A stretch of 34,236 bases of DNA from positions 1 through 34,236 of the forward strand of contig JABDLF010000078.1 of the NCBI GenBank assembly GCA_013003115.1. The letters are read 5' to 3'. The number at the start of each line of letters is the position of its first letter. The first letter of the stretch is position 1. Made by a program: the position numbers and the translations under genes. This DNA comes from Gammaproteobacteria bacterium. Lineage in GTDB: Bacteria; Pseudomonadota; Gammaproteobacteria; Steroidobacterales; JABDLF01. Below, in pieces: positions 10,168 to 14,105 of this stretch. Under the pieces are notes generated by a model. That model saw only the letters and a list, made by a program, of their open reading frames with translations. It was not told where the DNA came from and made no database searches.

Positions 10168-10178
10168 CGACCGGGTCA

Positions 10179-10228
10179 GAACGGCTTGCGCAGACGTAGA
10201 GCAAGCAGCCGACGCTGACTCGCCGTTC
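10179..10228 (+). repeat. Copy 1 of a 50-bp dispersed intergenic repeat
   Basis: The unit is bounded by GAACGGC (10179-10185) and its reverse complement GCCGTTC (10222-10228), so it can fold on itself. An inner pair GCTTGC/GCAAGC (10184-10189 and 10201-10206) allows a second stem. It lies 11 bases after the ppk2 stop. It matches 13546-13595 at 44 of 50 positions by eye. The rest of the 373-base gap up to pntA holds no gene; it ends in the leader hairpin of pntA. Confidence 0.7.
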
Positions 10229-10494
10229 GATCCAGAGCTTTTGGATAGCCCGGGCAATAGGGGCGATCAATACTCTAACTTATTGTTATTGAGACATTTG
10301 TGCTTAGTCGATAGCCATCGACCAACTGGATAATTGACCTGAAGCCATTTCCGTTCGCGATACGGTTCCACGTTACGAGCGGGCCCCTCGGATTTGTCAC
10401 ATTGATACTCCGTTGCCCGCCGGCCGGATAGCATCGCCTGCGCGGATATATCATCGCCCCCATGCCCTGCTAGAATAGGGCCAGGGAAGCGGCA

Positions 10495-10513
10495 GGCCCG
10501 GGCAATCCGGGCC
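10495..10513 (+). other. Hairpin in the pntA leader
   Basis: GGCCCGG-GCAAT-CCGGGCC is a perfect seven-base-pair stem with a five-base loop, ending 27 bases before the pntA ATG. It has no T-tract, so it is not a standard terminator. It may stabilise or tune the messenger. A ribosome-binding site (GCGGAG) lies between it and the start. Confidence 0.4.
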
Positions 10514-10540
10514 GATAAGTAAATTAAGCGGAGTCTTCAT

Positions 10541-13477: not shown

Positions 13478-13545
13478 GGGACGCAAATGGCGCCAGGCTT
13501 TCGTCCAATGCCCGGTCTGCAGGCCGCGGTGAGGAGGTGGCGCGG

Positions 13546-13595
13546 GAACGGCATGCGCAGACTTGGCGCAAACAGCCGACGCTGACTCGCCGTTA
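13546..13595 (+). repeat. Copy 2 of the 50-bp dispersed intergenic repeat
   Basis: The ends AACGGC (13547-13552) and GCCGTT (13589-13594) are inverted. The unit is 44/50 identical to 10179-10228, including the shared stretch CAGCCGACGCTGACTCGCCG. It lies 68 bases after the pntB stop, so like copy 1 it sits at the 3' end of a gene. Confidence 0.7.
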
Positions 13596-13649
13596 GTTCG
13601 TTATTGTCCATGTGGCGCAAGGACCAGGTAAAAGATAAGGCTGGAGCGG

Positions 13650-13699
13650 GAACGGCGTGCGCCCCCCACTGGCAATTCGCTAATCCCAACTCGCCGTTA
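13650..13699 (+). repeat. Copy 3 (diverged) of the 50-bp repeat
   Basis: It has the same 50-base length and the same inverted ends AACGGC (13651-13656) and GCCGTT (13693-13698), but the interior differs from copies 1 and 2. Conservation of ends and length with a changed centre suggests that the stem is what is kept. Confidence 0.55.
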
Positions 13700-13745
13700 G
13701 TTCGCTTAAGTTATTTCTGAGCACAAGCCGAATAAGCGAAAAGGC

Positions 13746-13770
13746 TGGAGCGGGTGAGGGGAATCGAACC
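13746..13770 (-). repeat. 25-bp duplicate of the tRNA-Gly 3' end (possible att scar)
   Basis: This stretch is identical to 13885-13909, which covers the CCA, the acceptor 3' strand and most of the T arm of the tRNA. The two copies are 139 bases apart. Such copies arise either by site-specific integration at the tRNA followed by loss of the element, or by tandem duplication as in rtT repeats. No integrase remains nearby. Confidence 0.75.
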
Positions 13771-13884
13771 AACCGCGTGCGATGCCCCCGCTTTGATCTA
13801 CCGTCGTCTCCTTCGCGGTTAGCTGGAAACCATCAAACAAATTGAAAACCGACCTGACGCCGATTCCGGGCACGATTTTATGAT

Positions 13885-13958
13885 TGGAGCGGGTGAGGGG
13901 AATCGAACCCCCGTCTTCAGCTTGGGAAGCTGAGGCCCTACCATTAGACGACACCCGC
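13885..13958 (-). tRNA. glyU: tRNA-Gly(CCC)
   Basis: The minus strand folds as a cloverleaf. The acceptor is GCGGGTG paired with CACCCGC, the discriminator is T, and CCA is encoded. The D loop has TAATGGTAG, the anticodon stem is TCAGC/GCTGA around the loop TTCCCAA (anticodon CCC at 13924-13926, reading GGG), and the T arm is GGGGTTCGATTCCCC. Length is 74 with CCA. The gene symbol follows E. coli usage for the CCC isoacceptor. Confidence 0.95.
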
Positions 13959-14105
13959 TAATCCTACTCGACGATAGTGTACTCATGGTGCCGACTGAAC
14001 CCAATAGTCTTTCGACACTGGTTGCGGTTACAGATTGAGTCAGGGCGCGCTGGGGGGCTAGTAGGGCTATTGCCGACCAGCATGACCGAATGGACGTATT
14101 CTCCT

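Follow-up and report, generated by a model that had tools for sequence, protein, structure and literature searches.

We identified an array of three repeat units behind the tRNA-Gly(CCC) gene of an uncultured gammaproteobacterium (order Steroidobacterales, contig JABDLF010000078.1), which we regard as probably made of tRNA-linked repeats (TLRs) of the Escherichia coli TLR/rtT kind with a lineage-specific core, grown by joining, duplication, and decay. Each unit is closed by a copy of the tail of the upstream tRNA, an inverted repeat stands directly before that copy, and the same design recurs at other tRNAs. The whole array occupies positions 13538-13884 on the minus strand of the window, by which we mean the entire 34,236-nucleotide stretch analyzed. 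It lies downstream of the tRNA gene on the same strand and consists of units of 139, 104, and 104 bp; 3' of it are 60 bp, followed by the end of pntB on the opposite strand. The features of the locus are as follows.

13976-13981, minus strand: candidate -10 element TACACT of the tRNA promoter
13885-13958, minus strand: tRNA-Gly(CCC) gene with encoded CCA (ARAGORN; Rfam RF00005, 62.5 bits)
13746-13884, minus strand: unit 1, 139 bp, made of a spacer, an inverted repeat, and a 25-base perfect tRNA tail
13812-13876, minus strand: S block in the unit 1 spacer, with a second copy upstream of pntA (2 copies genome-wide)
13771-13820, minus strand: inverted repeat AACCGCG-36-CGCGGTT, span 50, abutting the unit 1 tail copy
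13746-13770, minus strand: unit 1 tail copy, tRNA positions 50-74, GGTTCGATTCCCCTCACCCGCTCCA, 25/25 bases, 139 bp from the original
13642-13745, minus strand: unit 2, 104 bp, terminating in CCCGCTCCA, tail 9/9 bases
13651-13698, minus strand: inverted repeat AACGGCG-34-CGCCGTT, span 48, abutting the unit 2 tail piece
13538-13641, minus strand: unit 3, 104 bp, terminating in CCCGCGCCA, tail 8/9 bases
13547-13594, minus strand: inverted repeat AACGGC-36-GCCGTT (6-bp arms), span 48, abutting the unit 3 tail piece

An earlier note on this DNA had described a 25-base perfect copy of the tRNA 3' end downstream on the tRNA strand, which we located at 13746-13770, and at least two units offset by exactly 104 bases with shorter tail pieces. 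The second claim was borne out as well, since units 2 and 3 are homologous from end to end, with a local alignment score of 56 versus a best score of 28 among 300 dinucleotide shuffles. Beyond the 25-base tail copy, three repeat families are spaced at exactly 104 bp. Unit 1 is tied to this family through its end, where CGCACGCGGTT plus the tail compares with CGCACGCCGTT plus the tail. Single units folded as RNA no better than shuffles, and no terminator clearly above chance was found before unit 1. We infer the -10 element TACACT by reading the upstream region, because no site upstream of tRNA-Gly(CCC) passed our promoter scan; TGAGTACACTAT is also present at a similar distance upstream of the tRNA-Gly(CCC) gene of one relative (G014).

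A compensatory change distinguishes the arms of the inverted repeat in unit 1 from those in unit 2 (AACCGCG/CGCGGTT versus AACGGCG/CGCCGTT). An inverted repeat with a span of 48 to 50 and arms of 7 to 8 bases, placed 0 to 2 bases before the tail copy, is found at the Gly, Lys, Met, and Phe loci of this genome, with arms that vary by locus, apart from those of Phe, which recur in one of the three Lys repeats. Such a repeat stands at the tail edge in four of six independent tail loci, against a background of 0.0012 per edge taken over all window positions (P of about 3 × 10−11, post hoc), a value that is optimistic because the span was picked after the data had been seen, although it could still afford a large correction. 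Neither Ser locus (UGA or GGA) has a 48- to 50-bp inverted repeat at its tail, and inverted repeats of span 49 behind the tRNAs of relatives lay mostly within genes and were judged to be chance. Integron attC sites were considered and rejected on reading the arms, which lack the GTTRRRY/RYYYAAC core.

We searched the 700 bases downstream of each of 22 CCA-bearing tRNAs of this genome (Infernal and ARAGORN) for the tRNA's own tail, using the tails of the other tRNAs as the control. An own 8-base tail was present at 6 of the 22, against 0.34 expected (P of about 1.5 × 10−6). The six are Lys(UUU) with two copies, Met(CAU), Ser(GGA), Gly(CCC) with two copies, Ser(UGA), and Asp; the Asp match seems to fall inside the downstream gene and is probably due to chance. 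Phe(GAA) is a seventh locus: its own tail copy begins with CCCCTGGCCAC, within which the contig breaks off. Direct repeats follow Lys, Met, and Ser(UGA), and one repeat family is common to Ser(UGA) and Ser(GGA). At Met, Phe, and Ser(GGA), hairpins resembling intrinsic terminators, as read from the sequence, lie between the tRNA and the array. As a positive control, the de novo tail search recovered the E. coli tyrT/tyrV, argACG, and lys repeats, with tails of 18 to 19 bases.

The genome is 82% complete in 115 contigs, several of which end in or near arrays. Four contigs (L147, L151, L153, and L140) end 212 to 591 bases downstream of tRNAs with tail copies, and only about half of the tRNAs to be expected were recovered from the genome. 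The assembly may be interrupted at repeats that lie beside tRNAs. Downstream of tRNA-Ser(GGA), on L151, there is also an antisense copy of the tRNA's own T-arm, ATTCGAACCCGCGAT.

A mirror-image form of the design was found at the 5' ends of tRNAs. tRNA-Ser(GCU) is preceded by two units with a copy of its first 25 to 27 bases, and an inverted repeat spanning 48 bases, CGGCCCGC...GCGGGCCG, stands at the end of the head copy. Head copies of 18 to 19 bases lie upstream of tRNA-Thr(UGU) in this genome and upstream of tRNA-Gly in relatives G045, G029, and G015 (head repeats of the first 18 to 27 tRNA bases: L156, reverse complement 1292-1600; L139; L021; L026; L031). Overall, 6 of 220 loci had a head copy (0.16 expected), of which the one at Ala is a near-full tRNA copy; there were none among 56 E. 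coli tRNAs. We found no published report of 5'-head repeats of this kind.

Judged by PntB (84 to 85%), the organism stands close to Woeseiaceae-like gammaproteobacteria. A Blast search with the array in its own genome and 59 relatives, none of them from the same family, returned only the copy upstream of pntA beyond the tRNA itself, and the exact element pattern was absent from the GTDB contigs searched. The neighborhood of tRNA-Gly(CCC) differs in the relatives examined, and tRNA-Gly stood beside pntB in none of about 80 named genomes. Tail counts in relatives covered 198 tRNAs, an uneven sample. Displaced pieces of tRNA-Gly(CCC) did occur in relatives, at the following positions.

L117, 1190-1233: 3' piece, tRNA positions 31-74, about 3.1 kb downstream; one large open reading frame (ORF) between piece and gene, no evident integrase
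L118, 2597-2621: 3' piece, tRNA positions 50-74, about 1.1 kb downstream; one large ORF between piece and gene, no evident integrase
L119, 740-776: 5' piece, tRNA positions 1-37, about 2 kb upstream of the intact gene
L120, 3622-3658: 5' piece, tRNA positions 1-37, about 2 kb upstream of the intact gene

Both 5' pieces run on into an identical ATCGGAGTCGCTG, with one large ORF between the piece and the tRNA, and the region upstream of the piece in L119 closely resembles that of the intact gene. These displaced pieces would fit a reading of the tail copies as att-site scars, in which integrative elements entered the tRNA T-loop and were later lost, leaving tails and short flanks, as would the start of the 25-base copy exactly at the T-loop (position 50), a usual crossover region. 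We nevertheless consider this reading unlikely. The inserts measure merely 104 to 139 bp and are mutually homologous, whereas homologous spacers are not expected from successive independent integrations. Moreover, no integrase lies between the copies, and searches of phage and plasmid sequences returned nothing beyond the tail (about 30 bp of it in phage, no match in plasmids).

Two blocks of the array have further copies in the window; the earlier note had overlooked these, as it had the recurrence of the design behind other tRNAs.

10297-10361, minus strand: copy of the S block (unit 1 spacer), about 66%, upstream of pntA
10179-10232, minus strand: copy of the unit 3 inverted-repeat element, 87%, without a clear tail, upstream of pntA

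Both stand in the same order and orientation as in the array. The Gly-type inverted-repeat element has three copies and the spacer block two copies in the genome, all within the window. Because neither block occurs elsewhere in the genome, pntAB is flanked by a partial duplication of the array. The leader of pntA (10168-10540) thus holds diverged copies of two tRNA-Gly trailer blocks.

A copy away from tRNAs raises the quite doubtful alternative that the 48- to 50-bp inverted repeat is a small mobile or structure-recognized element that enters the T- or D-loop region and leaves truncated tRNA copies as a by-product. Its constant span and its locus-specific arms at broken tRNA edges, both 3' (Gly, Lys, Met, and Phe) and 5' (Ser GCU), speak for such an element, as does the Lys array, where GGTTC and ACCCACCA stand on either side of an inverted repeat, as though it were inside a tail copy. 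Against it, the Gly-type element has only three copies in the genome, its interior is poorly conserved, no recombinase was identified, and the element model gave weak matches in other members of the order that are away from tRNAs and were taken as chance. It is very improbable that the array is what remains of an earlier tandem cluster of tRNA-Gly genes that lost their tRNA bodies: such decay could leave tail-bearing repeat units, but the unit bodies share nothing with the 5' two thirds of the tRNA, each tail is preceded by an inverted repeat rather than tRNA sequence, and identical decay would be needed at six different tRNAs.

For tRNA-linked repeats, our preferred reading, we propose that the tRNA gene would have been broken, or have taken up an insertion, in its T-loop region, so that a new tail copy became joined to the trailer through the inverted repeat, and that spacer, inverted repeat, and tail may then have been tandemly duplicated and decayed. 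We assign the inverted repeat to the joining event, as either its cause or its product, because it sits at the joint of trailer and tail in the 3' form or of head and leader in the 5' form. If transcription reads through from the tRNA promoter, the tails would act as tRNA 3'-end processing signals, and processing would yield trailer RNAs of about 104 and 139 nt with CCA ends. A general RNA role, such as the release of small RNAs from false tRNA tails that the earlier note suggested, is weakened by the terminator-like hairpins that precede the Met, Phe, and Ser(GGA) arrays and by units that fold no better than shuffles.

E. coli has 22 TLRs at ten loci, each ending in the last 18 to 19 bp of the upstream tRNA or 5S RNA (PMC8144298). 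They were first described in 1978, and most are without known function or origin (PMC8144298). The claim of a role for RtT in the stringent response was retracted, and RNA activities are known only for RrA, RrB, and RrF, whose transcription, processing close to the repeat, and binding to Hfq and CsrA have been demonstrated (PMC8144298). We built a covariance model of the TLR core, R3, on nine E. coli TLRs; it had no significant match in this genome or in the window, and an Rfam search of the array returned the tRNA as its sole significant match. The earlier note's view that the sequence differs from rtT agrees with the absence of a match to R3 or Rfam RtT, and its proposal of an rtT-like architecture holds: unit 1 closes in the upstream tRNA's own 3' end, the defining hallmark of these repeats. 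The two-hairpin core (GCAACGGCCCGAAGGGCGAG...GAGTC) does not precede the tail. Beyond the terminator-like hairpin on L151, we noted a stretch similar to the E. coli TLR core, which R3 did not detect.

R3 matched in 7 of 59 genomes of the order and in 21 of 274 of the class. We read 44 loci, 39 from R3 and 5 weak ones from another model, R1, none of the 5 being near a tRNA. A tRNA is present at 26 of the 39 R3 loci, and a tail copy of 12 bases or more at 18; by model matches, E. coli-type TLR cores lie beside tRNA-Ser, -Gln, -Arg, and -Lys (L287-L295 and L301-L330). E. coli-type TLRs therefore exist well outside E. coli. Common descent of the array with them does not follow, because the E. coli core is absent from this genome.

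Several tRNAs of a single genome, from an uncultured lineage distant from E. coli, show the tail-copy design with a core unrelated to that of the E. coli repeats. That the design returns while its sequences change suggests that what is conserved is the tail, or else the breaking of the tRNA gene. We tentatively raise the possibility that TLRs, in the 3'-tail form and the mirror 5'-head form, are traces of an unrecognized process across the Gammaproteobacteria that breaks tRNA genes in the T- or D-loop region and joins the ends with a fixed-length hairpin, of which the 48- to 50-bp inverted repeat would be the lineage version. The origin and function of TLRs become testable through comparison of lineages.

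Like the E. coli TLRs (rtT/RttR after tyrT-tyrV and those of the arg and lys operons), the array lies downstream of a tRNA on the tRNA strand, has units in the range of about 100 to 180 bp, often in tandem, and closes each unit in the 3' end of that tRNA (PMC8144298). The tails of the E. coli repeats have a constant 18 to 19 bp from the T-loop, whereas those of the array have 25, 9, and 8/9 bases, and the conserved two-hairpin core ending in GAGTC before the tail is replaced in the array by the 48- to 50-bp inverted repeat. RrA, RrB, and RrF resemble the array in carrying a TLR-type 3'-end copy of an upstream stable RNA (5S) and stand apart from it by their demonstrated transcription, processing, and protein binding. 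It resembles the att duplications of tRNA-integrating islands in its direct repeat of the tRNA 3' end from the T-loop (25 bp); unlike those islands, it has no element, integrase, or cargo between the copies, which are 104 to 139 bp apart. As in REP/BIME and REPIN sequences, there is a short extragenic inverted repeat in tandem copies; unlike them, the array is one locus family of low copy number, with tRNA-specific arms and a tie to tRNA tails.
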